The position numbers and the translations under genes are program-made. DNA of 64,000 nucleotides. It comes from Salipiger profundus. GTDB taxonomy: Bacteria > Pseudomonadota > Alphaproteobacteria > Rhodobacterales > Rhodobacteraceae. Numbering within the stretch: the stretch's first letter is position 1; each line of letters opens with the position of its first letter. Of the stretch, positions 7,371 through 23,679 are shown piece after piece. The stretch spans positions 2,683,501 to 2,747,500 of the forward strand of contig NZ_CP014796.1 of NCBI RefSeq assembly GCF_001969385.1. The letters run 5' to 3'. The notes under the pieces are model-generated. The model worked only from the letters and a program-made list of their open reading frames with translations, did not search any database and was not told the DNA's origin.

Positions 7371-7379
7371 GGAAATCGC

Positions 7380-7667: not shown

Positions 7668-7766
7668 GGCTGCCTCTCTTGCCTCGTTTGCGCGCGGCTT
7701 GGTATGTTGCCAGGTCAAGGCGCTGTTCACTGCGCTCGCATCGATTGGATGCATGTTTCGTGAGAA

Positions 7767-7798
7767 TCTATAGCTCTAGTATCTATAGATTTTGTCTA
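7767..7798 (-). promoter_or_regulatory. MerR-type promoter/operator of the lipoprotein gene
   Basis: Minus strand: -35-like TAGACA (7798-7793), then a spacer containing CTATAG-ATA-CTAGAG (7788-7774), then -10-like TATAGA (7772-7767). The dyad matches the PbrR-type operator pattern CTATAG-N3-CTAGAG closely. The spacer is 20 bases. The lipoprotein start codon is 100 bases downstream. Confidence 0.6.
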
Positions 7799-8014
7799 TC
7801 TTTACGGCAACTCTGGCTGAGGTCAATCAAGTTTTCCGGACTATTGTGAGACGCGACGCCTCCCTGTCTGCGAACTGCGGCATCGCAGCCCGGCGAAGGT
7901 GTTACTTGGTAGGTGATGGACAAATAGCTCCAACTGCACCGCTCCTGGCCATAGACTGACATAAGGCATCCGAGTTAATTCTATACCCTCAGTGTTTTAT
8001 AAGCTGTGTCAGGC
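7799..8014. other. Intergenic stretch between the lipoprotein promoter and the IS3 remnant
   Basis: About 216 bases in which I see no gene, repeat or clear promoter beyond the flanking MerR-type site. Confidence 0.5.
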
Positions 8015-8315
8015 GATCGATTAAGATGTTGTGGCGGCAGCCCCCGTTTGCCCTCTATCTAGATCCTGGGGCCGATCCGCTTCACCCGGTCCATTCGGCG
8101 TAAGACGCAAACTGCTTACCCTGATCGCTGTTCATGATCTCAGATGGATGGAAGCGGCGGAACGCCTTGTGTGGTGCTCCGACACAGAAGCTGGTCCCGA
8201 GCAGTGCCTGCTTCCGATGATGGATCATCGTCGGATGCATACGGTACTCCGCGGCACATGCGTCACGGTGAGCTCACCCTTCACGGTCTCCAGCGCCAAT
8301 GGAACCTGAAAGCCT
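8015..8315 (-). pseudogene. Decayed IS3-family transposase fragment
   Basis: Read on the minus strand in shifting frames, the remnant begins with OrfA-like LALETVKGELTVTHV, then (after a frameshift) YRMHPTMIHHRKQALLG. It jumps directly to an OrfB-like end: FRRFHPSEIMNSDQG, KQFASYAEWT, then after another shift DRVKRIGPRI-stop-IEGK. These match the IS3 patterns HPTMIxxWKRALLEG, PPEIMNTDQGSQFTS and ISMDGKGR. Frameshifts, a stop and loss of the middle of OrfB show it is dead. No terminal inverted repeats were found. Confidence 0.6.
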
Positions 8316-8587
8316 GCTTCACGGTTCCTGCGTTTGGAGGTGTCCCGATCTCTGCTTCTTGGGTGGCCGCAGAGGTGAGATACTTGATTCCCTCGCCGTC
8401 CGGTCTTCCGGGAGTAACTAGCACCATTATTGAAGTCCTCAGGAAAGAAAACTCCAGAAACCCCCTTGAATCTACAGCCACTAGAGGAAGTATGTGCAGG
8501 ACAGACGAGACCTAGAGGGATTCTCCATGTCCAGCCAGCCGAATTCCAACGACGAGCATGACAGCCGCGCCCAACACTGTGGCGGGC

Positions 8588-8875
8588 GCATCGGATACCA
8601 CATCCACGACCTCGGGTCCGTCAATGATTAAGATCAAGCGTGCCACAGCGTCGATGCGGGGACTAAGCCACCGGCGCCTTCTGGCAAAGGCCACAGTTTC
8701 CTGGTGCACGGCTTCGACGACGCTGAAGGAGCCGCGCTTTTTCGCGGGCACTAACGCGTCCGGCGGCTTTACCGCGTTCGGCACGGCTACGATGTTGGGT
8801 GCCATCGCGTCCGGCGTCGGCGCGTCGTTGCTGGTCGTTAGCAACGCGCTGCGGTTTTGGAAGATGAGGGAAGAA
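8588..8875 (+). pseudogene. Possible remnant of a heavy-metal P-type ATPase C-terminus
   Basis: One plus-strand frame ends in AIASGVGASLLVVSNALRFW, which resembles the last helix of Zn/Cd P1B ATPases (pattern A-D-x-G-A-S-L-L-V-V-x-N-x-L-R). Upstream nucleotides (CTGAAGGAGCCGCGCTTTTT) resemble the preceding helix but are out of frame, as expected of a decayed gene. The frame could alternatively be a coincidental open reading frame. It lies beside the IS3 remnant in a stretch that otherwise looks like debris, and no catalytic motifs are present. Confidence 0.4.
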
Positions 8876-8933
8876 TCGTCTCCCCACAGCGGCGGTGCGG
8901 CTGTCTATGGCACCGGAAAGGTAGGGTTGGCAC

Positions 8934-9278
8934 ATGGTCATTGAACTGAAAGAGCCGGGGCGGGAGCCTGAACGGCGTCAGAAGGAAGCGAAAGAGAACG
9001 GAATGAACGCCAGAGGCGGAATGAGGTGCCCGGTCTGTGACGTGCCGCTGAGCATGTCGGAACGGCAGGGAGTCGAGGTAGACTTTTGCATGGAATGCCG
9101 TGGGGTCTGGCTGGACCGCGGCGAACTGGACAAGATCGTCGAGCGCAGCTCGCGCGAGTTCGCGGTCGGCAACGCCCCCGGATATGACAACACAATGCCC
9201 AGGGACTACGGCGGGCACGGCAGTCACAAGCAGCGCGGCTACCGTCGCAAGTCCTGGCTGCATGAATTGTTCGACTGA
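8934..9278 (+). CDS. zf-TFIIB-like zinc ribbon protein
   Basis: 114 residues with a TFIIB-type zinc ribbon: MRCPVCDVPLSMSERQGVEV, then DFCMECRGVWLDRGELDKI. The pairs CPVC and CMEC would bind one zinc. The C-terminus is basic and ends RRKSWLHELFD, a common ending for these small proteins. The ATG at 9004 would give a 91-residue form starting just before the ribbon; neither start has a strong ribosome site, so the N-terminal 23 residues are uncertain. The function of the family is unknown. It sits immediately upstream of the CtaG-like gene. Confidence 0.8.
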   Translation: MVIELKEPGREPERRQKEAKENGMNARGGMRCPVCDVPLSMSERQGVEVDFCMECRGVWLDRGELDKIVERSSREFAVGNAPGYDNTMPRDYGGHGSHKQRGYRRKSWLHELFD

Positions 9279-9325
9279 CCGCCGGAAGTGTTTCTGGCAG
9301 GATCTTCCCGGCGCGCGGCAGAGGG

Positions 9326-10252
9326 ATGAAAACCTCTGACGGAAGAACCGCCGCGGCCGTCAGCCGCGGCGACGTCCTGGCCCCGGGGCTTATCGCCGTC
9401 CTTGGCGCAGCCTTGTGGGCTGGCAGCACATTCGTGCCGACCAGCCTGCCATTCTTTCTGCCATACGAGTTCTCATGGCTCATTTACCTTGCCATCAGCG
9501 TGTCGGGATACTGGTTCCTCAGAGGGTTGCGCAGGATGCCGGCCGATGACCGGCCGCCGGTCTGGCGCCGAGCCGCGTTCTTCGCGGGTCTGGCGCTGCT
9601 CTGGACGGTGACGCAGACCCAGTTCGAATTTCTCGCGCAGAGGATGTTCTTCACCAACCGGCTTCAGCACGTCGCCATGCACCACGTCGGCGCGATGCTC
9701 GTCGCGCTTGGATGGGCCGGCCCCGCCATCCTGGCCGGCGGGCCGGACTGGCTGAGACGGATCGTCGGGAACCGATACCTGCGCTCGACGGTGTCCGTGG
9801 TGCAGCATCCGGCCGTCGCGGTGCTTCTCTTCGTTGGCCTGTTCTATTTCTGGCTGATACCGCCCGTGCACTTCCGCGCGATGCTGGATCCGGTCCTGTA
9901 TCAGGTGATGAACTGGTCGATGGTGGTCGACGGTATCCTGTTCTGGACGCTGGTGGTCGACCCCAGGCCCACAGGTGTCGCGCGGGTCAGCTACGGCGTT
10001 CGCGCCGCACTGGCGATCGGCGTCATGTTCCCGCAGATCGTTCTGGGCGCGCTCATCACCTTCGCGGAACGGGATCTTTTTCCGTATTACGCCTTCTGCG
10101 GCCGTTACTTTCCTTCGATCGGCGCGGTTGCCGATCAGCAGATAGGCGGAATCGTGATCTGGATCCCGCCGGCAATGATGAGCGTGATTGCTCTGCTGAT
10201 CGTCGTCAGAAACATGATGCGAGAACAGGACGCAAAGCATCTCAGCCGCTGA
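9326..10252 (+). CDS. Cytochrome c oxidase assembly factor, Caa3_CtaG family
   Basis: 308-residue polytopic membrane protein with about seven helices. It belongs to the CtaG (Bacillus-type, Caa3_CtaG) family linked to copper-centre assembly of terminal oxidases. Recognisable patterns are HVAMHHVGAMLVALGW, QHPAVAVLLFVGLFYFW and DQQIGGIVIWIPPAMM. It is not related to Cox11, which shares the name CtaG. Its 3' end overlaps the convergent Sco-like gene by 11 bases; a membrane copper-assembly factor beside a Sco protein is a sensible functional pair. A second, divergent paralogue lies at 19309-20322. The start is uncertain because GAGGG lies too close to the ATG. Confidence 0.87.
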   Translation: MKTSDGRTAAAVSRGDVLAPGLIAVLGAALWAGSTFVPTSLPFFLPYEFSWLIYLAISVSGYWFLRGLRRMPADDRPPVWRRAAFFAGLALLWTVTQTQFEFLAQRMFFTNRLQHVAMHHVGAMLVALGWAGPAILAGGPDWLRRIVGNRYLRSTVSVVQHPAVAVLLFVGLFYFWLIPPVHFRAMLDPVLYQVMNWSMVVDGILFWTLVVDPRPTGVARVSYGVRAALAIGVMFPQIVLGALITFAERDLFPYYAFCGRYFPSIGAVADQQIGGIVIWIPPAMMSVIALLIVVRNMMREQDAKHLSR

Positions 10253-10865
10253 GGAGACGTCTCAGATCGCGCGTGGCGGCGTCGATATCCGCATCGGTCG
10301 TGTCGAATTGCGGCCACATGACCCGTGCGGCGCCGGTGGCGTCGAAGATGTAGACCGATTTTCCGTGAGAGACGGCATAGTCGGGCTTGTCCGGACCCGG
10401 CCTGTCGACCCTGTACGTCACCTTCAGACGCCTCGCGAGGCGCGCGAGCTGATTGTCCGTTCCGCGCAGCCCCTGCGCCCGTGGCGTGAAGGCCGAAACA
10501 TAGTCCGCCATCGCGGGGAGCGTGTCCCGCAGGGGATCGACCGTGACGAAAAGCACGGTGATCGCCTCCGCATCGTCCCCGAGCCTGTCCAGGACGGCGC
10601 TCAGGTTTGCCAGCGTCATCGGGCATATGTCAGGGCAGAAGGTGAACCCGAAGAACATTGCGACAACCTGCCCGCGATAGTCCGCTTCGGTCACGGCCGC
10701 GCCGTCTCGGGCGCGGGTCATCGCAAAGGCCATCTCGGGCAACAGGCCGGTGACATCCTTGCCGTACCAGCCGCCATCGTCACAGGCCGACAGGGGCAAC
10801 AGTGCCCCGGCCAAGGCCAGGCGGAGGATGTCCCGGCGGGGCGCAAGCCGTTCAGAACGGGGCAT
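10242..10865 (-). CDS. Sco1/SenC-family copper chaperone (lipoprotein)
   Basis: Thioredoxin-fold copper metallochaperone for oxidase CuA assembly or periplasmic redox work, 207 residues. The ATG at 10865 gives a signal peptide with lipobox LSAC, so it is probably membrane-anchored. The copper-binding CPDIC lies in FFGFTFCPDICPMTLANLS, and the distal His in YAVSHGKSVYIFD. Its start lies 14 bases inside the upstream 51-residue membrane protein gene, implying coupling. It is one of three Sco paralogues on this island. Confidence 0.92.
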   Translation of the reverse strand: MPRSERLAPRRDILRLALAGALLPLSACDDGGWYGKDVTGLLPEMAFAMTRARDGAAVTEADYRGQVVAMFFGFTFCPDICPMTLANLSAVLDRLGDDAEAITVLFVTVDPLRDTLPAMADYVSAFTPRAQGLRGTDNQLARLARRLKVTYRVDRPGPDKPDYAVSHGKSVYIFDATGAARVMWPQFDTTDADIDAATRDLRRLLSG

Positions 10866-11007
10866 AGACGACAAAAAGCGCAACTGCGAACGCACCGCCC
10901 AGGAACAGGCAGCCGACGGCGGAGAGGATGAGGAGCATATTGCGGTTTTCACGTTTCTTCAGTGCGCGAAGTTGTTTTGCCGTGCCTGGGTTGGCGGCTT
11001 CGTTCAT
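10852..11007 (-). CDS. 51-residue single-pass membrane protein
   Basis: A short gene with start ATG at 11007 and stop at 10852-10854, preceded by GGAGG at good spacing. It encodes a 23-residue charged, cytoplasmic-looking N-terminus (AKQLRALKKRENRN) and one helix (MLLILSAVGCLFLGGAFAVA), ending YAPF. I do not recognise the family. It overlaps the start of the Sco-like gene by 14 bases in another frame, so the two are probably translationally coupled. It may be a small partner of Sco or the oxidase assembly machinery. Confidence 0.75.
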   Translation of the reverse strand: MNEAANPGTAKQLRALKKRENRNMLLILSAVGCLFLGGAFAVALFVVYAPF

Positions 11008-11062
11008 GCGGTCCTCCGGGACGGTTCTGATGTGCGTTCGGGACGCTGACCTTCAGGTGCCA

Positions 11063-13165
11063 TCATCGGTCAGCCGATCTCGGTTGCATTCCTAAATAGC
11101 TATCCAGAACAGATGGATAGACAGTAACGGCTGCCTCATCGAGGAGGCGGGCTTGAAGGCTCGCTGCGAGTTCGTCATGTCTCCTTTCGCGCAAAAGGTC
11201 TTCAATGTATGGCCGCGCTTCTTCGAGCGATACCGGCTGGGCTTCGGTGCGTTCCAGAACCTCGACGATGTAGAGACTGTCGCCGAGTTCGAAAGGCTTG
11301 CCGATCTCGCCCGGATCAAGTGCCATGACCGCCTGATGGAATGGGTGATCGAACATCTCTGACAGCGGGTCAGCACCCTCACCGACCCAGCTGCTCAGTT
11401 CTCCGCCCGTTCCCGCACTGTCGGAATCCTCGGAGTAGTCTCGCGCGACGATTGCGAATTCCTCGGCTTTGCCCAGGAAGCCGGGGACCAGCTTCGCGTA
11501 GGCTTCGTCCGCCCGTTCGCGCGCGCGAGCTTTTTCGTCCGCGGTACTGCCCAAACCGATGCGGACATAACGGACTCTGGCTTTTGGCGGGTAGGCAATC
11601 AGGTCGCTGTTTCGGCTATAGTAGTCCTGGATATCCGCGTCGCTCACCACGACCTGGTCGTCAACCTCTTCCTGCTCCATCATTTGTGCCATCAGTCGCA
11701 ACCTGGATTCGTCGGCCTGTGGGCGCGTCTTCACATCGAGAAGCTGATCGTAGGTGTCGCTGACCAGGAGCATTCTGTCGATCAGGTCGTCCGCGAGACG
11801 CTTCATACCGTCCGGGGCACTGTATTCGAGCCTTAACCCGCGGGGCAGTTCCCGGAACTCGTCGTAGAACTGCCCGAGGTTGTAACGCTCGCTCTTGATC
11901 GTGAACAGCGTCTTGTCGCCGTTCGCCGCGAACCAGGCCTCCTCCTTTCGCCGTGCGACGGCTTCGGCGACCTCCGCACGTACCTCGGAGAGCTCCCGTG
12001 ACCGGGCCGGCCTGGAATCGACGAGGCGCACGACATAAAACGCGTCTTCCGCTTGGAAGACGCTGGCGAGTTCGCCCGGCACCAGCGCGAATACGGCCGT
12101 CTCCCATTCAGGCGCCTCGGTGCCCTCCGCGACCTCGCGGCCCGACGCCATCCTGGTTCCCTCTTTGTCGGCAGAGGCTTCGCTGAATGTCGCTCCTCCG
12201 CGAATCCGCAAGAGGGCGTCGGCGGCTTTCTGGCGCGCCGCGTCCCCGAACGAGCCAATCGGAAACGCAAGTTCATCGACAATCACGCGCCGGGTCAGTT
12301 TGAAGCTGTCTCGGTTCTCATCGTAGTATCGTCGCAGTTCGTCGTCCGTGGGCGACGGCACTCGCAGAAGGTCGTAGTTCCTCGTGATAGAGGCGTTGGA
12401 CCTGAGGCGCTCGACATAGGACGCGACGTAGTCAGGTTCGCGCCGGGCCTTCAGCGTCCGGCTGATGCCTTCCCGCGCTTCCTCGAAGGTCTGGCCGGCA
12501 AGGGCGGCCCGGTTCGCATCATAATAGGCGCGAAGGTCGCTCTCGCTGACCGTGAGTTGTTCTTCATGGATCTGGTCGGACAATGCGGCAAGCGACAACT
12601 CTTCGTCGATGTGCTTCGCGGCATGACGGAACGATTCGTCGCCTTGCGGCTTTCGCTCGGCGGCCCATCGCAGGACGATCCGATCCGAGATCAGGTCCTC
12701 GACCACGCCGACGATGGCGTTCGGCGATCGCATCAACACATCGGCGTCCTCGCTTGACATCATCCTCATGTGCTCCGCGATGTCGTCCAGCGTGATCCTT
12801 CCCCCGTCGTATGTCGCGACCACATCCGGTGCCGGCGGATTGTCGGCCACCTGATCTCCGGATGCATAGTACCAGACCATCACGGTAACGGTGCCGATGG
12901 CCCCAACAAGTCCGCCCATCCGCCAGCGGCGTATCCCAGAGCCGCGCGATGGCCGGGTTTCGGGCGCGGGTCTGGCGCTGTCGCCGGGCGTGCCGCGGGT
13001 CGTTTCCCGATCCGCGCCGGCGTTGCCGTCAAGCGATGGCCGCGTGATTCCGGAACCGTGGGTTCCCGGTTCCTCCGAGGCGCTTTCTGCCTCCGGCTCC
13101 GAATCCGCCCGGCCGCGCAGGCTGGCGATCACGTCCTGCCAGTTTTGCTTCCAGCCCCCGGCCAT
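11063..13165 (-). CDS. Membrane-anchored peptidyl-prolyl isomerase with two parvulin-like domains
   Basis: 700 residues from ATG 13165, which lies just past the end of the upstream SPFH gene; a longer frame would run into that gene. A 75-residue cytoplasmic, Pro/Glu-rich segment is followed by one membrane helix (GLVGAIGTVTVMVWYYA). A SurA/PpiD-like periplasmic part starts at VVATYDGGRITLDDIAEHM. Two parvulin-type regions are visible: one around VIVDELAFPIG to AFYVVRLVDSRPA, and one around VRYVRIGLGS to SLYIVEVLERTEA. It resembles PpiD in topology but not closely in sequence. As the last gene of the SPFH operon it probably acts as a periplasmic folding factor with those proteins. Confidence 0.85.
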   Translation of the reverse strand: MAGGWKQNWQDVIASLRGRADSEPEAESASEEPGTHGSGITRPSLDGNAGADRETTRGTPGDSARPAPETRPSRGSGIRRWRMGGLVGAIGTVTVMVWYYASGDQVADNPPAPDVVATYDGGRITLDDIAEHMRMMSSEDADVLMRSPNAIVGVVEDLISDRIVLRWAAERKPQGDESFRHAAKHIDEELSLAALSDQIHEEQLTVSESDLRAYYDANRAALAGQTFEEAREGISRTLKARREPDYVASYVERLRSNASITRNYDLLRVPSPTDDELRRYYDENRDSFKLTRRVIVDELAFPIGSFGDAARQKAADALLRIRGGATFSEASADKEGTRMASGREVAEGTEAPEWETAVFALVPGELASVFQAEDAFYVVRLVDSRPARSRELSEVRAEVAEAVARRKEEAWFAANGDKTLFTIKSERYNLGQFYDEFRELPRGLRLEYSAPDGMKRLADDLIDRMLLVSDTYDQLLDVKTRPQADESRLRLMAQMMEQEEVDDQVVVSDADIQDYYSRNSDLIAYPPKARVRYVRIGLGSTADEKARARERADEAYAKLVPGFLGKAEEFAIVARDYSEDSDSAGTGGELSSWVGEGADPLSEMFDHPFHQAVMALDPGEIGKPFELGDSLYIVEVLERTEAQPVSLEEARPYIEDLLRERRHDELAASLQARLLDEAAVTVYPSVLDSYLGMQPRSADR

Positions 13166-13166
13166 G

Positions 13167-14297
13167 CTACCGAAGCCCAGTCGGCGAAAGGATCGGGCCA
13201 GAGGACTCCTCGCCGAAGAGCTTGAGGTTGAAGCGTCCTCCCCGTTCTGTATCAAGCGCATAGACTCGGACCCGGGGAAGGATCTTCTCGATGGTATCAA
13301 GAAACATGCGATACCGGGTCACGTCTTCGCCAAAGGAGACCGAGTTGCTGCGATATTCGGCCAGAAGATACTCGAAGGCCTGGGCCGCGCCGGTGGCAGA
13401 CGCCAGGACGCCGGACCTGTAGGCCTGCGCCTCGGCCGCCAGTCGCTGCGCCTCGCCACGGGCTTCGGGGATCAGGCTGTTCGCGTAACCGCGCGCTTCG
13501 TTTATCATCCTGGCCTTTTCTTCTCTGGCCGTGTTCACACCCGAAAAGGCATCGGCGACGTCCTGTGGCGGGAAGGCCTTCTGCAGGTCGATGCCCACGA
13601 TCGCCAGCCCGCTGCCGTAGGCATCGAGGCGCCGCTGGGCCTCGTCGCGGATCGACTGCTGAAGCGACTGGCGGCCGCTGGTGAGAAGCGCGTCCACGGG
13701 CAGTCCGGTCACGAGTTGCGTCACCGCGCCGCGAAGCGCGTCGCGCACGGTAAGATAGGGTGCATTGCCGATGTTCAGCAGATAGTCCGCCGGATCCCGA
13801 ACCTGATACTGCGCGATCACTTCGATATCCACGACATTGGTGTCGCCCGACAGCGCCTGAAGTTTCGACGGGGGCTCGGGGTGGCTGTGATCTTCCTCCT
13901 TCGCGTCGATGCCGACCTGTTCGCGGCGCACCGTGCTGACGTTGACGACATCCACACGGTCGACGGGCCAGGGCAGCCGATAGTGAAGCCCCGGCTGCAT
14001 ACGTGGTGCGACGACGGCGCCGAAACGCCGGACCACAGCGGCTTCTCCCGGTGCCACCGAGTAGACGCCCGTGGCGAGATAGACGGCCAGACCCGATGCG
14101 AGCAGACCCCAGACCAAATAGACCGGCCGGAAGTGGCCAAGCGCAACCCGCATGTCTGCGACGGGCGACTCGGCGCCGGTGGCAAGGCCGCGGGCTGCGT
14201 CCGCCGCGGCTTTCCGAACCCGTCGGGCGCGGCTCTTCCACCTGCCAGCCGGCCTGGGCGCTGAGTTGTCATGCGAGAGAGGGTTGTCGTCGCTCAT
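13167..14297 (-). CDS. HflK-like SPFH-domain membrane protein
   Basis: 376 residues. A basic cytoplasmic N-terminus precedes one helix (YLVWGLLASGLAVYLATG) and an SPFH/band-7 domain with YSVAPGEAAVVRRFGAVV, then GLHYRLPWPVDRVDVV. A long helical stretch follows (ARMINEARGYANSLIPEARG). In E. coli, HflK and HflC form a periplasmic cage around the FtsH protease. Here the gene overlaps the HflC-like gene (4 bases) and abuts the isomerase gene, so the set is translated together. It is a second HflK-type copy within the operon, distinct from the CDF fusion, and is unlikely to be the housekeeping hflK, which normally sits outside mobile elements. Confidence 0.88.
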   Translation of the reverse strand: MSDDNPLSHDNSAPRPAGRWKSRARRVRKAAADAARGLATGAESPVADMRVALGHFRPVYLVWGLLASGLAVYLATGVYSVAPGEAAVVRRFGAVVAPRMQPGLHYRLPWPVDRVDVVNVSTVRREQVGIDAKEEDHSHPEPPSKLQALSGDTNVVDIEVIAQYQVRDPADYLLNIGNAPYLTVRDALRGAVTQLVTGLPVDALLTSGRQSLQQSIRDEAQRRLDAYGSGLAIVGIDLQKAFPPQDVADAFSGVNTAREEKARMINEARGYANSLIPEARGEAQRLAAEAQAYRSGVLASATGAAQAFEYLLAEYRSNSVSFGEDVTRYRMFLDTIEKILPRVRVYALDTERGGRFNLKLFGEESSGPILSPTGLR

Positions 14298-15259
14298 GGC
14301 CGGACCCCCGGCACATTGATCCGGCCTGTATCCGCCTCGGCATCGGCAAGATTGCTCGAACCTGTGGAGGGGGGCGGTTGCAGCACGCTGCGCGGATCGA
14401 GATAGCGCAACAGTTCAGAGTCGGACGGCAGAATGAGGGTCGTGCCGTCGTCGATGAACTTGTCGTATGATTCGAGTGTCCGGGAAAACTGGTAGAACTC
14501 CTTGTCCTTGCCGAACGCCCCTGCGTAGATGGATACCGCATCCGCGTCGGCGCGGCCGCGCGTCTCGGTGGCGTCCTGGCTTGCCGCAGCCAGGATCGCT
14601 GCCTTCTCCGTATCGGCCTCCGCCCTGATCCGGGCTGCTTCCTCGGTCCCTTCGGAGCGAAACTGCCGCGCTATGGCTTCGCGCTCGGACCGCATCCTCT
14701 GGAATACGCTCGAAAGGTTAGCGGGCGGGAAGGTCAGTTCCTTGAGCTGCACGTCCGTTACGGTGAACCCGTAAGGCTCCGTCCGGGCCGCGGCGCGCTC
14801 GCGCACCGCCGCCAGGGTATCGGGAAGTTTGACGTTGGAGGTATCTACTGTAACGAGTTGACCCAGCTCGACCTGCCCCAGCGCCGCACCCAGTTCGGAG
14901 CGCACGATATCATTCAGCCGCAAGTCCGCGCCGCGCAAGTCGCGGACGTTCTTGACGAAGGCGAGCGCATCGGTCACGCGCCATGTCGCGTAGGCTTCCG
15001 CGACGATGTTCTTTTTGTCGCCGCTGAGAAACTCGGTTCGTGGCAGTGTGTAGACCTGTAACTGATTGCTGATCTTGACGACGCTCTGCACCGGATCGGG
15101 CAGCTTTGCATAAAGCCCGGGTTCGTTAATGATCCTCACGGGGTTGCCGAACTGGGTAACGATGGCATCCTCGGTGGTATCGACCTGAAAGTAGACCAGG
15201 CTGACGGCCAGGAACGCAAGCGCCAAAGCCCCGAAGCCAAGAAAGCGAAGGATTTTCAT
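14294..15259 (-). CDS. HflC-like SPFH-domain membrane protein
   Basis: 321 residues with an N-terminal helix (FLGFGALALAFLAVSLVYF) and an HflC-type SPFH domain beginning FQVDTTEDAIVTQFGNPV. It continues with GLYAKLPDPVQSVVKI and the RTEFLSGDKKNIVAEAYATW region. The later MRSEREAIARQFRSEGTEEA stretch is typical of HflC helices. It would pair with the adjacent HflK-like proteins to build a membrane ring facing the periplasm. It overlaps the downstream HflK-like gene by ATGA. The association with a CDF fusion and a PpiD-like protein suggests a specialised version rather than the housekeeping protease modulator. Confidence 0.9.
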   Translation of the reverse strand: MKILRFLGFGALALAFLAVSLVYFQVDTTEDAIVTQFGNPVRIINEPGLYAKLPDPVQSVVKISNQLQVYTLPRTEFLSGDKKNIVAEAYATWRVTDALAFVKNVRDLRGADLRLNDIVRSELGAALGQVELGQLVTVDTSNVKLPDTLAAVRERAAARTEPYGFTVTDVQLKELTFPPANLSSVFQRMRSEREAIARQFRSEGTEEAARIRAEADTEKAAILAAASQDATETRGRADADAVSIYAGAFGKDKEFYQFSRTLESYDKFIDDGTTLILPSDSELLRYLDPRSVLQPPPSTGSSNLADAEADTGRINVPGVRP

Positions 15260-15290
15260 TTTTGGGGTACCCCACGTGTTTTCTGATTGA

Positions 15291-16829
15291 TCAGGGCTGC
15301 AAGCGCCGGCTGGATGGCTGCGGGAGCCAGAGATCGGTTGTGTCCGGCGTGGTGGCCGGATCGACGATCAGTTTGCGAACGCCGTTCAGAGACCGCTCGA
15401 CAGCTTCCAGATACAGTCGCTGACGCGTGATCTCTGGTGCCTTCGAGTAAGCGGTCTGACGCGCAACGAAACTCGCGGCTTCCCCGGACGCCCGCGCGAG
15501 CCTCTCGGCTGCGTAGGCCTGCGCGGACTGACGCATTCGATCCGCATCGCCGCGGGCCACGGGCAACACTTCGTTTCGGTAGGCGGTCGCCTCGTTGACG
15601 AAAGTGTTGCGATCCTCGCGTGCGCTTGCAACATCGCGGAACGCCTCGGCGACTTCGCGCGGAGGCGCGCTCTCGAGGAGCTGTACGCCCGAGACGCGCA
15701 GCCCGCTTTCGTTCCGGTCAAGCGCGGCCTGCGCGGTGGCCATCGCTTTCTGCTCGATTTCGGTCTTGTCGACAGTCAGCAGCGCGTCCACGGATTCGCC
15801 GGCGACGACGCCGCGGAAAGCGGCGATCGACGTCTCCATCACCAACTCCTCGGGATCCGCGACATTGAGAAGATAGGCGGCAGGATCCTGTACCGTGTAA
15901 TGAACGCTTGCCCGCACCGAAATCAGGTTCTCGTCGCCGGTCAGCATCTGGGTTGGCGGTGTCTCGATCCGGCGCACCTGATCGGAGGCGACAACATCGA
16001 CGCGCTCGACAGGCGCTGGCCAACGGTAGTGCAGGCCGGGTCCGGTCCGGGCGACGACCGCGCCGAACCGTCGGACGACCGCCGTCTCGCCTGGCTGCAC
16101 GGTGTAAAAGCCGCTAACGAGAAACAGCCCCGCAATGAGAAAAGCACCGGCGGGAACGACCGCCCGAAGATTGACATGCTTCGGGGCGGTCACCCCGGTC
16201 TCGCCCTCCAGATCCAGGAGGCGCCGCTGTCGCAGAGCCGCGATGGCCGAGGCGGCGATCTGGAACCCCGACAGGAAGACCATCACGGCAACGATCGCCG
16301 CCGCCGCTAGATCGAGTTTCGACAACCCCAAAGCGGAGCCGGCCAGTCCAACGACGACAACGATGGAGGCATAAATGTCGACCTGAGAGTGGTAGCCGCT
16401 CGCGATCAGGGCCGGCGACCCCGTCTGGCGGCCAACGTAAAGTTTATAGCGGGCGATCACATAGGCCACTGCGACGGTGACGAGCGAGGCCAGCGTGATC
16501 GGGACCAGGTTCCGAAGTTCCGCGCTTGTCCCGGCCAGGACGTCGATAACGATCTCGATGCCGACATAGAAGATCGCTCCGGAAACGATCAGGGCTATGA
16601 GGTTTTCCAAGGCGCCTACGCCCTGCCGCACCGGATCAGAGCCGCGGATCCGGCGGCTGAGGTACAGCCCGGCAAGGACAAAAAGGCCGATAGCCAGGTC
16701 CGTCAGCGAATGCAGGGCGCTGGATCGCAAAGCAATGCTTCCGGATACGACCGAAAGCCAGAACTTGAACAAGATCAGCAGAACGTTGATCACGGCCGTG
16801 ATGAGTACTGTGCGTTCCTTGCGGTCCAT
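15291..16829 (-). CDS. Fusion of a CDF metal transporter with an HflK-like SPFH domain
   Basis: 512 residues from ATG 16829 (GAGAGAGG lies upstream; a GTG at 16886 would add 19 residues). Residues about 8-200 are a cation diffusion facilitator core of six helices. Both metal-site pairs of Zn/Cd transporters are intact: His40/Asp44 (LHSLTD) in helix 2 and His147/Asp151 (YHSQVD) in helix 5. The usual cytoplasmic CDF tail is absent. In its place a seventh helix (about 223-241) leads into an SPFH domain starting YTVQPGETAVVRRFGAVV. Six plus one helices put the SPFH part in the periplasm, exactly as in HflK. It heads the operon with HflC-like, HflK-like and isomerase genes. Confidence 0.88.
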   Translation of the reverse strand: MDRKERTVLITAVINVLLILFKFWLSVVSGSIALRSSALHSLTDLAIGLFVLAGLYLSRRIRGSDPVRQGVGALENLIALIVSGAIFYVGIEIVIDVLAGTSAELRNLVPITLASLVTVAVAYVIARYKLYVGRQTGSPALIASGYHSQVDIYASIVVVVGLAGSALGLSKLDLAAAAIVAVMVFLSGFQIAASAIAALRQRRLLDLEGETGVTAPKHVNLRAVVPAGAFLIAGLFLVSGFYTVQPGETAVVRRFGAVVARTGPGLHYRWPAPVERVDVVASDQVRRIETPPTQMLTGDENLISVRASVHYTVQDPAAYLLNVADPEELVMETSIAAFRGVVAGESVDALLTVDKTEIEQKAMATAQAALDRNESGLRVSGVQLLESAPPREVAEAFRDVASAREDRNTFVNEATAYRNEVLPVARGDADRMRQSAQAYAAERLARASGEAASFVARQTAYSKAPEITRQRLYLEAVERSLNGVRKLIVDPATTPDTTDLWLPQPSSRRLQP

Positions 16830-17058
16830 CGTTCGGAAGACCTCTCTCTCGTTTCCTTGACCGGCTTTGATAGACGAATGGCGCACTGAACATCGGTGAG
16901 GTTGCCATTCGCGCTGACAGTCCCTTTAGGAGAAGGTTGTTTCACTCCTTTGTCGCTAGGGTAGGATTTTCTGACGAACGTTATCGAACTGCCCAGTTGT
17001 AAAACCTTGACACATCTTTTTTCGGGACGCCTCGTCGTGTCGCGGGTATCAGGAGGTC
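16830..17058. promoter_or_regulatory. Divergent promoter region between the SPFH operon and the two-component system
   Basis: The region separates the CDF-SPFH fusion (minus strand) from the response regulator (plus strand). A TTGACA at 17007-17012 is a good -35 for the plus-strand genes, though no clear -10 follows at 17 bases. A ribosome site AGGAGG lies just before the ATG at 17059. The response regulator may bind here and control both directions; I could not define its repeats. Confidence 0.45.
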
Positions 17059-17781
17059 ATGACAGAGCATCAGGCACACATTCTAGTCGTCGATGACCAC
17101 CACGAGATCCGCGAGCTGGTTGCCGGACTTTTGTCTCGGGCCGGATACAGTGTGAGCAGCGTCGCGGACGGCGTCCAGATGCGCCGTCTTCTCAAAGTCC
17201 AACAGATTGACCTTGTCGTTCTCGACCTCATGCTTCCCGGCGATGACGGGCTGACGCTCTGCCGGGATCTTCGCGCCAAATCCGAGGTGCCCGTGATCAT
17301 GCTTACCGCAAGGGGAGAGGAGTTCGACCGGGTGCTCGGGCTTGAAATGGGAGCGGACGATTACCTGGCCAAGCCCTTTGGCGGCCGGGAACTGATCGCA
17401 CGGATCCGCGCCGTTCTAAGGCGGGCACGAGCACTTCCCGTGGGCGAAAGCAAATCTTCCGTCGCAGCGTGGCGTTTCGACCGTTGGATCTTTGATCTTT
17501 CCGCAAGGAGGCTAAGGTCCGTTTCCGATGTGGTCGTGCCCCTGAGCACGTCTGAATTCAATCTCCTGAGAGTCTTTATCGAAAGACCGGGAACGGTGCT
17601 GACCCGGGAACAGTTGCTCGATCTGACCCGCGGTCGAGATGCCGACTTTGTTGACCGGAGCATAGACACGAGAATCAGCCGCCTGCGCCGGAAGATTGAG
17701 CTAGACCCTCAAAATCCCGAAATCATCAAGACCGTATGGGGCGGCGGATACATCTTTTCAGCTGAGGTGGTCCGGGGATGA
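17059..17781 (+). CDS. OmpR-family response regulator
   Basis: 240 residues. The receiver domain has the acidic pocket VVDDH, the phosphoacceptor Asp in VVLDLMLPGDDG, and Lys in YLAKPFGGRE. The C-terminal winged helix is of OmpR/PhoB type, with LSTSEFNLLRVFIERPG, DRSIDTRISRLRRKI and TVWGGGYIFS. It overlaps the following histidine kinase by ATGA. Divergent transcription from the SPFH operon suggests that operon is its target, sensing envelope or metal stress; that is inference from layout. Base composition here is lower in GC than in the chromosomal genes. Confidence 0.93.
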   Translation: MTEHQAHILVVDDHHEIRELVAGLLSRAGYSVSSVADGVQMRRLLKVQQIDLVVLDLMLPGDDGLTLCRDLRAKSEVPVIMLTARGEEFDRVLGLEMGADDYLAKPFGGRELIARIRAVLRRARALPVGESKSSVAAWRFDRWIFDLSARRLRSVSDVVVPLSTSEFNLLRVFIERPGTVLTREQLLDLTRGRDADFVDRSIDTRISRLRRKIELDPQNPEIIKTVWGGGYIFSAEVVRG

Positions 17782-19202
17782 GGCGCCTCTTGCCGAAGAG
17801 TCTCGTCGGTCAAACAGCTGCCGTGTTAATACTCGGGCTGATCGCTACCCATTTGCTGACAATCATAATTTTCGAGGAACATCGCAGGGTCGTCCTAAAC
17901 GAGACCGAGCAACAACATATCGCACAACTCGTCGCGGCGATTTCCGACATCATTCTAAGTGTACCTGATGATGATCGCGAGTTGGTCGCGCGCGCCTCCG
18001 AAAGTCATAGCTTTCGAGTCTCCTTGGTGCCTATCACCCCTTCTTCGGTTAATGTGGTGGACGACCCGCAGTCTGCCCGCCTTGGCGAACTGCTCAAGCG
18101 TCGGATACAAACGGCCGTGGATGAGCCAATCCAAGTGGAAATCGGCGAGGCCAAGCCACGGGATGAACTGTCAGTCAACGCAACGATCGTTGAATGGCTT
18201 CAAACGCGATTGCTGCGCATGGCTACGGGACATGATCAGGATACTGCGCTCCTTGTTTCGGTGCCGCTACCGACGGGTGAACGGATTGATTTCACAACCA
18301 TGCTACCCCTAGCGGCGGCTCCCGGATGGCCAAAAGTGGTCGCAACGACGGGAATCTTTCTTTTCGCTGTCCTTCTGCTTTCCGTCTGGACAGTCAGACG
18401 GCTGCTCTTGCCGGTGCGGGTCTTTGCCGACGCGGCAACTTCATTCTCTCAAGACGTTCAGGCGCCGTCCCTGCCTCTGACCGGACCGTACGAACTTCGT
18501 GAGGCGATAGGAGCATTCAATGAGATGCAACTCCGTATCCGTTCACAATTCGAACAACGCACACAAATGCTTGCCGCCATCTCGCATGATCTGCGAACGC
18601 CGCTTACGGTCGCTCGGCTGAGGGCCGAGACAATTGACGAATCTGATGTCCGGGAGCGGATCGTCAGTTCGCTTGCCGAAATGGACCAGATGCTACAGAC
18701 CACTCTCGCCTTCGCTCGCGAGGGAACCGAAAGCGAATCGACTAGCATGACGAACCTTGGTGCCCTTGTTGAAGCGATTTGCGATGATTTGGCAGAGTTG
18801 GAGTATGATGTGACGGCGGCGATTCCGGACGGTATTATTTTGCCTTGCAGGCCCGTAGCCTTGAAGCGTGCTCTGACGAACCTGATTGAGAACGCGATAC
18901 GTTATGGCACTTGCGCAGTTGTCGATGTTCGGTCCGATGCCCAGGCAGCCGAAATTGTCATTGCCGACAGCGGCCCCGGTATCCCGGCCAAAGACTTGGA
19001 GCGAGTATTCCTTCCGTTTCATCGACTGGATGCTTCACGCAATCGAGAGACCGGAGGCCTGGGGTTGGGACTGGCAATAGCGAAGAGAATTGTAGAGTCT
19101 CACGGTGGCCAAATACGGCTCTCCAACCGAGATGTGGGCGGGCTGGAAGTCCGCGTCAGTTTGCCGGTGCATTTCACCAAAGAGCTTCAAGACGTCAAGT
19201 AG
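17778..19202 (+). CDS. Membrane sensor histidine kinase (EnvZ-like)
   Basis: 474 residues. Two membrane helices (TAAVLILGLIATHLLTIII near the N-terminus and VVATTGIFLFAVLLLSVW at about 190-207) bracket a periplasmic sensor domain. A HAMP linker follows, then the H-box AAISHDLRTPLTVARLRAE. The catalytic domain shows the N-box LTNLIENAIRYG, the G1 box DSGPGIP and GGLGLGLAIAKRIVESHGG. It is coupled to the response regulator by a 4-base overlap. The signal is unknown; the neighbouring SPFH/isomerase genes suggest periplasmic protein or metal stress. Confidence 0.93.
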   Translation: MRRLLPKSLVGQTAAVLILGLIATHLLTIIIFEEHRRVVLNETEQQHIAQLVAAISDIILSVPDDDRELVARASESHSFRVSLVPITPSSVNVVDDPQSARLGELLKRRIQTAVDEPIQVEIGEAKPRDELSVNATIVEWLQTRLLRMATGHDQDTALLVSVPLPTGERIDFTTMLPLAAAPGWPKVVATTGIFLFAVLLLSVWTVRRLLLPVRVFADAATSFSQDVQAPSLPLTGPYELREAIGAFNEMQLRIRSQFEQRTQMLAAISHDLRTPLTVARLRAETIDESDVRERIVSSLAEMDQMLQTTLAFAREGTESESTSMTNLGALVEAICDDLAELEYDVTAAIPDGIILPCRPVALKRALTNLIENAIRYGTCAVVDVRSDAQAAEIVIADSGPGIPAKDLERVFLPFHRLDASRNRETGGLGLGLAIAKRIVESHGGQIRLSNRDVGGLEVRVSLPVHFTKELQDVK

Positions 19203-19308
19203 CGAGCCGTCTGCATCTTCGGATCGGTCTGCTCGCCGAGAACTGCGCCGATCAGGTGGTTCCTCTCCGTCAAAACCTGGACCTGTGAAGACACTCGGTG
19301 CGCAATGC

Positions 19309-20322
19309 TTAGAATGCATAGACGATCGTCACCACTGTGGCCATTACGATCGTGAACATCGCAAAAGCGCACAGAGCGAGAGTCCGACCCATGTCTCTGT
19401 TCGGCCCATTCACTTTCAAACGCAACTCTGCGGCGGTTTCTGGAAACTCCAGTGCCGCAGAATTCGAATTACGCATCAAGTCGCCGCGGGAGTTCCAACG
19501 CCGCTCTTCCGCTGCGTTCCAGCCATTCATCACGAGAATGATCGCCACAATCAAGACCATCGAGGAGGGAATCCAAATCATGTATCCGCCGACCGTCTCG
19601 TCCACCAGGGAGCCAAGTCTGCCACTATGATATGGCGAAGATCGCAGAACATATAAGCTAACCTCCTTGAACGTTGTCAAAGAACCCAGGAAAATGTTTG
19701 AAACGATGACCACGAAACCCGAGATTAGCCGCGCCCCGCGCCGGGCTCCTTCCGGCGGGTCGCGGTGATCGAACATCATTGAAAAATACCAAAGTCCCGC
19801 CAGAGTCATCGACAGATGAGCCAGTATCTCTAAGAGCGCAATCTTCTGCGCGAGAGCGAATAGCTGCGGCACCTGCCAAATGAAGAGCGATCCGACAAGA
19901 CAAGCGGTGGCAATACCAGGGCGCGTCATGAACCTTGCAATGTGCCCGCCGCCAAGCTTTCTGAGACTTTTTCGCCATTGCCTGCTCGACCCGGCTTTCA
20001 AGATATGCCACGGCTGGGACACTGCGATGACAAGTGGTCCCACTAAGCGCAACAAAAGATGCTCGACCTGGTGTGCCGAAAATTGGCTGTGTCCCAAATG
20101 GGCAAGAGGCGCATTTGTCGCGACGAGGACGATGGCAAGGCCGGCAAAGAAGAGAGCACGACGCCAGATCGTTATCTTTCCGACAAAGCGAGCGGTTGTC
20201 TTGAGGCCACGAAGATACAAAGATGTTGCAAGGCCGATGAATGCGAATGAGATCGGCGAAATCATATAGCCGAATGGATCGTAAAAGATCAGACCGTTGA
20301 ACAACTGCTCACTCCTTGTCAT
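19309..20322 (-). CDS. Second Caa3_CtaG-family oxidase assembly protein
   Basis: 337 residues from ATG 20322 (a start at 20361 is possible but adds a non-conserved tail). About seven membrane helices with family patterns FSAHQVEHLLLRLVGPLV, LAHLSMTLAGLWYFSMMF and DETVGGYMIWIPSSMVL. It is clearly paralogous to the gene at 9326-10252 but divergent, and carries an extra C-terminal segment with one more helix (LALCAFAMFTIVMATVVTI). It converges on the histidine kinase gene. It may belong to the long sco/dsb/lsp operon upstream, but a 346-base gap separates it. Confidence 0.86.
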   Translation of the reverse strand: MTRSEQLFNGLIFYDPFGYMISPISFAFIGLATSLYLRGLKTTARFVGKITIWRRALFFAGLAIVLVATNAPLAHLGHSQFSAHQVEHLLLRLVGPLVIAVSQPWHILKAGSSRQWRKSLRKLGGGHIARFMTRPGIATACLVGSLFIWQVPQLFALAQKIALLEILAHLSMTLAGLWYFSMMFDHRDPPEGARRGARLISGFVVIVSNIFLGSLTTFKEVSLYVLRSSPYHSGRLGSLVDETVGGYMIWIPSSMVLIVAIILVMNGWNAAEERRWNSRGDLMRNSNSAALEFPETAAELRLKVNGPNRDMGRTLALCAFAMFTIVMATVVTIVYAF

Positions 20323-20668: not shown

Positions 20669-20836
20669 TTATGAAGTAATACGCATTATGAACAGCGACA
20701 CGATGAATGCGAGAAGGCCGAAAGCGATACCCGAGCTGACCGCATATTGCATGATATCCAGCCGGTTTCCTTTACGGCGACGCGCCAGATACCCACCCCA
20801 AATTGCTCCTGCGAGGATACCCGCGATCGTCAACAT
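20669..20836 (-). CDS. 55-residue two-helix membrane protein associated with lnt
   Basis: Start ATG 20836 with GGAGG upstream. It overlaps the last bases of lnt. Two hydrophobic stretches, MLTIAGILAGAIWGGYLA and VSSGIAFGLLAFIVSLFIM, flank a basic loop (RRRKGNRLDIMQYA). This resembles a short conserved Rhodobacterales protein with a ARRRxGNRxDxxQY core, often labelled apolipoprotein acyltransferase in databases without evidence of such activity. Its position directly after lnt suggests a role in lipoprotein maturation, but it lacks any catalytic domain. Confidence 0.72.
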   Translation of the reverse strand: MLTIAGILAGAIWGGYLARRRKGNRLDIMQYAVSSGIAFGLLAFIVSLFIMRITS

Positions 20837-22413
20837 GACTTTGCCTCCGCTGATGCCTTTTGATTTCTTGCCCGATGCATGCCTGACAACCGTGTGCCAA
20901 GAAACAGGATCCAAGTGACGGCTGTTAACGCCAGGAGCATCCAGTCGCCGAACCGTGCATATGGCGTGGGTTCGAGGGCGCCGGGAAGTTCGGCATCGAT
21001 GACACCGGTCTCTTCGATGCCAAGCTTCACAATGAGCTCGCCCTTCGCGTCGATTACCGCTGAGATGCCGGTGTTCGCGGCCCTCACAATCGGAAGTCCT
21101 TCTTCGACGGCACGCATGCGGACCGCAGCAAGGTGCTGCTCGGGTCCAATACTGGTGCCGAACCAGGCATCGTTCGTGGCGTTGAATATCCAGTCGGGCC
21201 GATGCTGATCGTCGATGACGTCGCCTGGAAAGATGATCTCGTAGCAGATGGCCACGGCCAGCGGGGGAGCGCCGGGCAGGGTCAGCGTTCGCGGTCCTGC
21301 ACCGGGCGTAAAGTCTCCCAGGCCTTGGGTGATCCGGTCGAGCTTAAGCCAGCCGCGGAAGGGGACATACTCGCCGAATGGAACGAGATGGTGCTTTGCA
21401 TAGCCGGTCAGAATGTCTCCGGTTTGATTGTAAGCTTGGACGGTGTTGAAATAGAGCGTTTCTTGGTCCTTTCGCGTGCGGTCCGGGACGCCGGTCAGAA
21501 GCAAAGCGCCGTCCTGCAAGATGGCGGCAATGCGAGATCGCGCCCCCAGATCCTCATCGAGAAAGCCCGGAAAGGCGGTTTCCGGCCACAGGAGCACATC
21601 CACCTCGCCGGGACCGCTCGAGAGGGCCAGATAGCGCGTTAAGGTTTCGTCTCGCTGTTCGGGCGCCCACTTCTCCCTTTGCGGCACGTTGCCTTGAACT
21701 ATGCGCACATCGACTCCGGGCGCAGGTCTCGGCTCTAACCCGAGTCGGCCTTGGCCTACGGTCCATGTCGTCGCGATCACGGCCGCGAACAGACTAGCGG
21801 GGACCCAGCGCCGCCGTCTCTCCGTCACCAGGGCCGCGGCCGGCAGCGTTCCGGCCAGGACTAAAAGAAAGCCCAGCCCATAGCTGCCGATCCATGCGGC
21901 CGGCTGCCTCAGTGTCGGGTAGTCAACAAGGGCGTAGGCGGTGAGGTTCCAGGGAAATCCCGTGAAGACGTGCCCGCGCAGCCACTCTGCCGCCGTCCAG
22001 GAGGTTGCGAATAGCAGGCAGGTCGTTACGCCGGTGACCGCAAAGCGGGACTTAGTGCTGGAAAACAGCGCCGCCGCCAAGGCCGGAAAGGTGGCCAGAC
22101 CGGCGGCCAGTGCCGCAACGGCCGGGATCGCCAGCGCCCCAAATTTATCGGGGTCCACATAGAAGCTCTCGGAGATCCATGAGAGGCCAAAGCCGAACTG
22201 ACCGAGACCAAAGGCCCACCCGACCAGTGCGGCTGCCCCGACGGAGCCAGCGCGCAGCAGAAGAAGCAGCACTGAAAAGGATACGGGCACGAGCAGAATG
22301 ATCGAGAAGGGCGGAAGCGACAGAACGGTCATCGCTCCTGCTGCGGTCGCGACAATGGCGCGAGACGGCAAGGAAGTCACCCAGCCTCTGTAAAAAGGCA
22401 AAGGCGACCTCAT
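20830..22413 (-). CDS. lnt: Apolipoprotein N-acyltransferase
   Basis: Adds the third acyl chain to lipoproteins in the inner membrane. 527 residues from ATG 22413, which overlaps the lspA stop (ATGA); the frame upstream of this is inside lspA. An N-terminal multi-helix region is followed by the nitrilase-like catalytic domain: VDVLLWPETAFPGF (Glu), LVPFGEYVPF (with the Lys-containing region preceding) and LAVAICYEIIFPGD (Cys nucleophile). Length is typical. The housekeeping copy should lie elsewhere on the chromosome, so this is probably a second, mobile Lnt serving the island's metal-response lipoproteins. Confidence 0.94.
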   Translation of the reverse strand: MRSPLPFYRGWVTSLPSRAIVATAAGAMTVLSLPPFSIILLVPVSFSVLLLLLRAGSVGAAALVGWAFGLGQFGFGLSWISESFYVDPDKFGALAIPAVAALAAGLATFPALAAALFSSTKSRFAVTGVTTCLLFATSWTAAEWLRGHVFTGFPWNLTAYALVDYPTLRQPAAWIGSYGLGFLLVLAGTLPAAALVTERRRRWVPASLFAAVIATTWTVGQGRLGLEPRPAPGVDVRIVQGNVPQREKWAPEQRDETLTRYLALSSGPGEVDVLLWPETAFPGFLDEDLGARSRIAAILQDGALLLTGVPDRTRKDQETLYFNTVQAYNQTGDILTGYAKHHLVPFGEYVPFRGWLKLDRITQGLGDFTPGAGPRTLTLPGAPPLAVAICYEIIFPGDVIDDQHRPDWIFNATNDAWFGTSIGPEQHLAAVRMRAVEEGLPIVRAANTGISAVIDAKGELIVKLGIEETGVIDAELPGALEPTPYARFGDWMLLALTAVTWILFLGTRLSGMHRARNQKASAEAKSC

Positions 22414-22892
22414 GGACCAGTCCGGTGTGCTTGCTGGATCTTCGGCCCAACGAGGAGCAATCCGACGCCACATACCACAAACACATCGGCTATGTTGAAG
22501 GCGGGCCAATGGGCGGTGCTCACATAGAAATCGAGGAAATCCGTGACCCCCTGAAAACGCAGGCGATCCGTTACGTTGCCGAAAGCGCCTCCTATGATCG
22601 CGCCGTATGCGACGGCTTCGACTCTGTTGGCAGCTTGACACATCATGAACGTGAACCAGACGCAGACGGCAAAGGCCAGCGCCGCCAGGACCCACCATGG
22701 TGTGCCGCTGAGAAGGCCGAAGGTCACGCCGTCATTACGAAAGTACGTGAGATTGAACCCAGGTACGATCGGGAAGCCATTGCGCAGGGCTTCCGCATTG
22801 GCAACCACGATGGCTTTTGTGATCTGATCTACGGCGAAAGAAATGAATATGGCAAGCGTGCCGATTGCTAACGTTTTCATTTCGGCAGACAT
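22410..22892 (-). CDS. lspA: Lipoprotein signal peptidase (PbrC-like)
   Basis: Type II signal peptidase, 160 residues, four membrane helices. Conserved boxes: DQITKAIV, LTYFRNDGVTFGLL, the catalytic Asp regions GGAFGNVTDRLRFQGVTDFL, and AFNIADVFVVCGV. An LspA homologue inside a metal-resistance operon recalls PbrC/PbrBC of lead-resistance operons, where lspA-like genes accompany a Pb/Zn/Cd ATPase and a MerR-type regulator. It overlaps lnt and follows the ZIP gene by 4 bases, so all three are co-translated. Confidence 0.94.
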   Translation of the reverse strand: MSAEMKTLAIGTLAIFISFAVDQITKAIVVANAEALRNGFPIVPGFNLTYFRNDGVTFGLLSGTPWWVLAALAFAVCVWFTFMMCQAANRVEAVAYGAIIGGAFGNVTDRLRFQGVTDFLDFYVSTAHWPAFNIADVFVVCGVGLLLVGPKIQQAHRTGP

Positions 22893-22896
22893 CGCC

Positions 22897-23679
22897 TCAC
22901 CTTAGCCTAGCGTCGAGAAAAAGCATTATGACCAAGCCAATTGCCAGGCCGAGGACTGCTCTGTTTTGGCGCCCTTTTCGGTGGCTACTAGGGATGATCT
23001 CATGGCTGCTAACAAAGAGTGTTGCGCCCGCCGCGAGAGCCACGCCCCATTGAAGATAGCCTACCGAAGAATTAATCATGGCAGCACCAAAAAGGCCGCC
23101 AACCGGTTCGATGAGCCCGGTCAAAGCAGCGATTAACCAAGCGTGATGCTTAGAATACCCCTCTCCGAGGAGTGCGGCTGCCACCGCTAGCCCTTCAGCC
23201 GCGTTCTGCAATCCAATTCCAATACCGAGCGGTATACCGCCCGACATCCCATCGGCCGCAATCCCAATTCCCAATGCAAACCCTTCGGGGAAATTATGGA
23301 CTGTGATCGCGAAGATAAAGATCCAGACACGGCAAAGCGTTGCGCCATCAGATGTTTTGGAGTGCGGATTTAGCCGCTCGCTGGGTATCCTTTGGTTTAT
23401 CTGGGCTACTTCACTCAAGCCAAGAAAGACGGCGAAGCAGACTATAGCGGCAGGGGCAGCGCCATATTCGAACAATCCTTTGGCTCCGTCTAGGGCCAGA
23501 AAAGTCATGGATACTAGTAGGGTCGCGAGCATTACGCCTACTGAAACGCAGAGAACGGAGTCGCGCATCGATCTGGAAGGAATATGTCCGCACAGGACTG
23601 GAGCCGCCCCAAGGGCTGTCAGCATACAGGTGGCAAAGCTTCCGAGAAAGCTGAGCACTACCGGGGGAGACGTTTCCAT
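22897..23679 (-). CDS. ZIP-family metal transporter
   Basis: 260-residue membrane protein of the ZIP (ZupT-like) family. The two metal-site helices are intact: ITVHNFPEGFALGIGI in helix 4 and GLQNAAEGLAVAAALL in helix 5. The second has Asn-x-x-x-Glu-Gly where a classic site has His-x-x-x-Glu. GLIEPVGGLFGAAM follows, then a C-terminal SHEIIPSSHRKG. ZIP proteins normally bring divalent metals into the cytoplasm, odd next to an exporter; a role in metal exchange or delivery to periplasmic enzymes is possible. It is tightly packed between the DUF411 and lspA genes. Confidence 0.9.
   Translation of the reverse strand: METSPPVVLSFLGSFATCMLTALGAAPVLCGHIPSRSMRDSVLCVSVGVMLATLLVSMTFLALDGAKGLFEYGAAPAAIVCFAVFLGLSEVAQINQRIPSERLNPHSKTSDGATLCRVWIFIFAITVHNFPEGFALGIGIAADGMSGGIPLGIGIGLQNAAEGLAVAAALLGEGYSKHHAWLIAALTGLIEPVGGLFGAAMINSSVGYLQWGVALAAGATLFVSSHEIIPSSHRKGRQNRAVLGLAIGLVIMLFLDARLR

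Follow-up and report, generated by a model that had tools for sequence, protein, structure and literature searches.

What does a bacterium do with a CDF metal transporter that continues, in the same chain, into the body of an HflK-type SPFH protein? The question arises from one open reading frame in the window, the 64,000-nucleotide stretch of Salipiger profundus DNA analysed here. The sequence-only reading had seen a CDF core joined to an SPFH domain, and had proposed that the fusion could seat a metal exporter in an SPFH cage and couple metal export to membrane protein quality control.

A transporter and an HflK body in one chain

The gene and its parts are as follows.

15291–16829, minus strand: CDF–HflK fusion gene, 512 amino acids in one frame, first gene of the operon
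16233–16805, minus strand: CDF transporter core, residues 9–199, six helices, metal site H40/D44/H147/D151
16164–16232, minus strand: cytosolic linker, residues 200–222, where the CDF C-terminal domain would be
16107–16163, minus strand: seventh transmembrane helix, residues 223–241
15582–16103, minus strand: SPFH/Band_7 domain, residues 243–416, within the HflK-type C-terminal half (241–490)

Both halves of the fusion passed fold tests. The CDF half scored 97.1 bits against TIGR01297 (cut-off 82.35) and 96.2 bits against PF01545 (cut-off 26.6), and the HflK half scored 223.8 bits against the hflK equivalog model TIGR01933 (cut-off 159.4). The Cation_efflux match stops at residue 199 and is followed by the linker, the seventh helix and the SPFH domain; by domain matches, the cytosolic C-terminal ferredoxin-like domain of CDF proteins, which is usual in this family but not universal, is absent. 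One helix lies immediately ahead of the SPFH part and six further helices lie N-terminal to it. The positive loops inside, together with the seventh helix, support an SPFH part that lies outside, as had been claimed earlier, with the orientation read from charges only.

A protein search with the fusion returned 562 relatives, and both domains were present in all of the best 120 of these, the window's own included. When we searched with the most distant member, from a Eubacteriales metagenome-assembled genome (MAG; locus L034), 226 relatives were found at E ≤ 1e-60, and the best 120 again carried both domains; the matches listed included Lachnospiraceae, Oliverpabstia, Pygmaiobacter, Sedimentibacter, Desulfosporosinus and Synergistaceae. 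The earlier claim that CDF and SPFH form a true single chain was thereby borne out, all homologues listed having the same architecture. An assembly or frame artefact joining two genes near position 16,200, the outcome by which the sequence-only reading would have fallen, is refuted because the fusion recurs: the architecture is shared by all 120 + 120 homologues listed and by 26 further loci in public genomes, and the probability left to an artefact is close to nil.

We then combined the best 120 of the 562 and the best 120 of the 226 relatives into a set of 240 sequences, excluding the window's duplicate (P0002). In this alignment H40, D44, H147 and D151 were all kept in 236 homologues, the exceptions being a glutamine at position 40 in one and a glutamate at position 151 in three. 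Both HxxxD pairs are therefore as intact as first described, and the loss of the site in all homologues, which would have told against the idea, was not seen. Zn transporters such as ZitB, CzcD and the ZnTs likewise carry their HxxxD pairs on helices 2 and 5 (PMC10932157; PMC1868760). The linker carries an HxH motif in 210 of the 240 homologues (99/120 and 111/120 in the two sets); the window's own linker has a single histidine and no HxH. The fusion very probably contains a working transporter.

To place the fusion in its gene context we scanned loci with one genome per species, which gave 28 loci, of which 26 (L009–L034) were kept. One locus (L035) was excluded as it has no fusion, and another (L008, Carideicomes alvinocaridis SCR17) because its near-identity to the window, 99.995% over 21.5 kb, means that it is either a copy of the window's locus or that locus itself. 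A 16.5-kb contig of Allosediminivita pacifica (L009), from another genus, is 98.99% identical to window positions 5294–19389 over 14.1 kb; it was kept in the counts, though it is hardly independent of the window. This near-identity may reflect recent transfer or assembly cross-contamination. The 26 loci cover Alphaproteobacteria, Chloroflexota and one Bacillota MAG (L034), the one locus with gene context on the Clostridia side of the family.

The fusion is rare in the genomes surveyed. Our census figures for whole fusions (E ≤ 1e-90, or 1e-110 for the class of G676) are lower bounds, as the top candidates of each genome only were scored. Whole fusions were found in at least 1 of 292 genomes of the window's order and at least 1 of 385 of its class, its own genome only in both cases; in at least 6 of 297 in the family of an Aminobacter genome (G672), three of them already known; in at least 2 of 298 in the class of G676, both already known; and, for G680, in at least 1 of 291 genomes of its class and 1 of 63 of its family, namely G680 itself.

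Operon partners and conserved histidines

The genes that follow the fusion, and a divergent regulatory pair, are listed below with two stretches discussed in this section.

14294–15259, minus strand: HflC of the operon, 321 amino acids, TIGR01932 169.5 bits (cut-off 134.4), one clade
13167–14297, minus strand: second, unfused HflK of the operon, 376 amino acids, TIGR01933 209.7 bits (cut-off 159.4), one clade
13881–13889, minus strand: HSH motif of the second HflK, within its extracytoplasmic H-x-H-P-E-P insert
11063–13165, minus strand: membrane-anchored SurA/PpiD-like peptidyl-prolyl isomerase with PPIC domains, 700 amino acids
12566–12772, minus strand: conserved-histidine stretch of the isomerase
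17059–17781, plus strand: OmpR-type response regulator, divergent
17778–19202, plus strand: EnvZ-type sensor kinase, divergent

The isomerase start was set at M46 of a 745-residue open reading frame because homologues start there. Spacings between the four genes in the window are 31, −4 and 1 bases. An hflC gene comes after the fusion in all 26 other loci, and also in a plasmid locus (L043); in L031 it follows after about 640 bases. The second hflK is next in 23 of the 26, and the remaining three are cut by contig ends (the contigs of L016 and L021 end at or just past hflC, and that of L031 in a 106-residue piece of hflK). The isomerase gene was present in 20 of the 20 loci whose contig reaches it, and is located before the fusion in L033 and L034. 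Recurrence in distant genomes beside hflC, hflK and an isomerase gene, which the sequence-only reading had named as support, is thus what we observed. An OmpR/EnvZ-type pair is found at 19 of the 26 loci, divergent in the window and mostly upstream on the same strand elsewhere. Across 20 kinase sequences, the sensing part showed no conserved arrangement of His, Met or Cys that would point to a particular metal.

The second HflK carries an insert, H-x-H-P-E-P or near it, that precedes an LSGDTN strand. An H-x(1-2)-H insert was found in 24 of 25 operon HflK proteins, the exception being L033; no histidine pair stands at this position in any of eight canonical HflK proteins, nor in four fused HflK proteins aligned alongside. 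HxH is not rare in HflK per se, because five of the eight canonical proteins carry one of their own at another place (GLHFH or similar). The isomerase has four conserved histidines (745-residue numbering), H177 in 19 of 21 sequences, H226 in 21, H230 in 20 and H245 in 20; L034 has lost two of the four, and L033 and L013 one each. They sit in the chaperone part, beyond an anchor helix predicted with low confidence at residues 79–101 of 700; the structure model of the isomerase is of modest confidence (pLDDT 75.7, pTM 0.46). On sequence grounds, the insert and the isomerase histidines are candidate metal sites on the export side of the CDF core, and they are the main new support for a function beyond mere resistance.

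Metal-gene setting, descent and mobility

The wider window carries the following genes.

4027–6321, minus strand: P-type ATPase for heavy metals, closest to ZntA (Zn/Cd type)
10242–10952, minus strand: SCO1/SenC family protein
22897–23679, minus strand: ZupT-like ZIP metal transporter (103 bits, under the cut-off of 252)
25534–26900, minus strand: SCO1 and PCu(A)C copper chaperone genes
440–2748: trbG/trbI conjugation genes, on one side of the operon
29075–31272: tyrosine integrase abutting dusA, on the other side of the operon

The ATPase scored 862 bits against the ZntA-like model, whose cut-off of 1005 was not reached, versus 327 against CopA, and exceeded both subfamily cut-offs (Cd 542, cut-off 313.5; Cu 408, cut-off 397). 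The ATPase of L010 scores alike. ZntA-like was the top score for both of the two alphaproteobacterial neighbour ATPases tested, the ATPase of L034 scored higher on ZntA than on CopA, and an SPC motif was present in three of five Chloroflexota ATPases examined.

A set of 27 seed proteins was used to search the neighbourhoods of all loci; those scored as metal genes were PCu(A)C, SCO, heavy-metal ATPase, CtaG, DUF411, ZIP, CopC, CopD and Nramp. At least one was found at 18 of 26 fusion loci, and at 15 of the 18 with 20 kb or more of sequence; those without were L013, L016, L020, L021, L027, L028, L031 and L033, among which L013, L027 and L033 have 20 kb or more. Of the 26 loci, 16 have copper-type seeds (PCu(A)C, SCO, CtaG, CopC, CopD) nearby and 14 a heavy-metal ATPase, and thiol-disulfide genes recur. 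The same seeds found metal genes at none of eight canonical hflKC loci (20 kb each; seven taken from genomes that carry the fusion, the eighth from the L035 genome), a comparison biased towards the fusion loci because the seeds had been drawn from them and from the window. A DegP-like gene is present at seven of the eight canonical loci versus near 4 of the 26 fusions. From the ATPase scores and neighbour gene counts together, the neighbours handle both Zn/Cd-type metals and copper.

Several other genes were seen in these neighbourhoods. A MerR-family regulator (window 28433–28933; CueR 123 bits, ZntR 102–115 bits, all under the cut-offs) also occurs at seven further loci. Lnt lies in the region 20830–22892 of the window, with an LspA-like frame at 22410–22892 named by eye only, and Lgt occurs twice in L033 (14007–14858 and near 18161), so that widely different genomes have lipoprotein-maturation genes close to the operon. 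A HGSNAT-type acetyltransferase membrane protein stands beside the operon in L010 (20524–21258; Hyphomicrobiales) and in L034 (6548–7252; Bacillota MAG). Outside the operon, a 1125-residue frame on the minus strand of the window (36733–40110) has no Pfam match.

To study descent we built a tree of 85 SPFH parts that included the window and the plasmid locus and left out the truncated or broken loci L016, L020, L021, L024 and L031. Fused HflK (n = 23; support 99/94), operon HflK (n = 23; 100/99) and operon HflC (n = 23; 100/99) each form one clade, separate from canonical HflK and HflC. The fused and operon HflK clades are sisters at 90/86, which is under the star threshold, and long branches are flagged in the tree. 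Three single clades point to co-inheritance and probably to one fusion event; as the tree reads, a duplicated HflK probably acquired the CDF core once, and the gene set then moved as a unit. Chloroflexota copies are 44–63% identical to the window's (51–63% without L033), which indicates transfer between phyla. A predicted conjugative plasmid of Aquibium oceanicum carries the operon, the sole record from plasmid searches with two queries. The presence of TrbG/TrbI on one side and an integrase at dusA on the other suggests that the metal genes may lie in an integrative conjugative element; no direct repeats longer than 12 bases were found at the island ends when the dusA junction was compared with 60 kb upstream and 29 kb of the window.

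A proposed machine, its alternatives and known systems

Taken together, the fusion in its fixed gene set suggests an undescribed machine that links metal export to envelope protein care. Our preferred, tentative reading, to which we give slightly less than an even chance, is that the operon products build an SPFH cage of their own, whose wall includes a metal transporter that exports into the cage. HflC, the second HflK and the CDF–HflK fusion would co-assemble, with the fusion occupying some of the HflK places. The E. coli cage has 24 subunits, HflK and HflC alternating, in the part of the published account consulted (PMC12048511). That the fusion co-assembles with its own HflC and HflK is likely, and if it takes HflK places, the exporter would open under the SPFH wall. 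The SPFH assembly would stand in for the missing CDF C-terminal domain by bringing transporter units together. The CDF core would pick up a divalent metal in the cytosol, most likely Zn2+, and move it outward in exchange for protons, and in most homologues the metal may pass the HxH linker on its way to this core. With the exit fixed under the SPFH wall by the seventh helix, metal would be released within the cage or at its rim, and could be bound there by the HxH loop in the second HflK and by the isomerase histidines. During folding, envelope proteins held in the cage might then receive metal or be protected from it. Delivery or buffering of metal within the cage is possible, though we put it a little below the reading as a whole. 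Transport, the identity of the metal, cage assembly, hand-over and coupling to folding are steps that we infer.

In its strongest form the proposal is a metal-loading chamber: a proton-driven transporter would be one of the subunits in the wall of a three-component SPFH cage and would discharge into an enclosed folding space, and the cage HxH loop and isomerase histidines would pass metal to envelope proteins or keep it from them. We regard this form as somewhat unlikely.

One alternative is a plain metal-resistance exporter whose SPFH part is an oligomerisation platform or serves microdomain placement, with no cage delivery and no folding link. It draws on the missing CDF C-terminal domain, on the capacity of SPFH domains to oligomerise and on a setting rich in metal genes, the ZntA-like ATPase included, but leaves unexplained the strict company of hflC, second hflK and isomerase as well as the extracytoplasmic HxH insert and the isomerase histidines; we consider it unlikely. 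Copper delivery, meaning the maturation of copper proteins such as cytochrome oxidase with copper itself or a helper metal transported by the CDF part, was our first idea. The copper-type genes near 16 of 26 loci, the recurring thiol-disulfide genes and the window ATPase, which passes the Cu subfamily cut-off as well, would all fit. We demoted it to a rival because that ATPase is best matched as ZntA-like and the metal site is of the Zn type. The other ATPase results also speak against copper (the two alphaproteobacterial neighbours, L034, and the SPC motif in three of five from Chloroflexota), as do relatives in Clostridia, which mostly lack cytochrome-oxidase-type enzymes, and its probability is low.

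Slightly lower still is the probability that the CDF part is a metal sensor, whose binding alters the SPFH cage and hence the access of FtsH or another protease, with no net transport. A conserved metal site and an HflK body in a single chain, and the two-component system adjoining at 19 of 26 loci, are what a sensor might show, yet 236 of 240 homologues retain the four ligands and the helix framework that a working transporter has, and there is no linked FtsH gene: all 12 genomes searched encode FtsH (PF01434), but none has it on the contig of the fusion at a distance of 100 kb or less, the nearest lying about 102 kb away (G683). Of the sequence-only reading, the fusion, the intact site and the recurrence stand and the placement of the SPFH part outside is supported, whereas export, entry into a cage, a role for FtsH and coupling to quality control stay inferred. 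The present analysis adds the second HflK with its HxH insert, the isomerase histidines, the metal-gene setting, a probable single origin and mobility.

No description of a CDF–SPFH or CDF–HflK protein was found in full-text literature searches, as judged from titles and abstract starts among the matches listed, with most subscription papers outside their scope. Term searches within an SPFH evolution paper (PMC2636767) and within PMC13086221 gave no mention of cation or efflux. Among the matches listed, database names for the fusion, where given, are mostly HflK, or hypothetical or Band 7 protein, and the transporter half has been overlooked because of such names. A transporter-fused cage subunit offers a measurable substrate, a fixed set of partners and a metal site that a single-residue change can inactivate. 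It would show how a CDF exporter works without a cytosolic domain, and would tie metal export to protein folding in the envelope. Were the chamber form true, an SPFH cage would have a transport function of its own, and there would be a metallation compartment at the membrane without a lipid boundary.

Known systems share parts of this design. CDF transporters such as YiiP/FieF, ZitB/CzcD and ZnT differ from the fusion, which is without their cytosolic C-terminal domain and has instead a seventh helix and an extracytoplasmic SPFH body. Unlike SurA, PpiD and PrsA, the operon isomerase is fixed beside SPFH genes and has conserved histidines in its chaperone part, counted in operon isomerases only. 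Pseudomonas aeruginosa clone C reportedly has a laterally acquired second FtsH, likewise a transferred membrane protein-quality-control gene; the operon described here differs in being without FtsH and in having metal genes and a CDF–SPFH fusion. The closest likeness in the HflK half is to E. coli HflK/HflC (7vhp, 7wi3, 9cz2), whose HflK is matched by the fusion over residues 79–345 of the chain (profile A2, 241.7 bits; 35% identity over 261 aligned residues) and likewise has hflC adjacent. In the fusion a six-helix transporter replaces the N-terminal segment of HflK, the operon proteins form clades apart from canonical HflK and HflC, and the linked genes include an isomerase and a third SPFH gene bearing the HxH insert.
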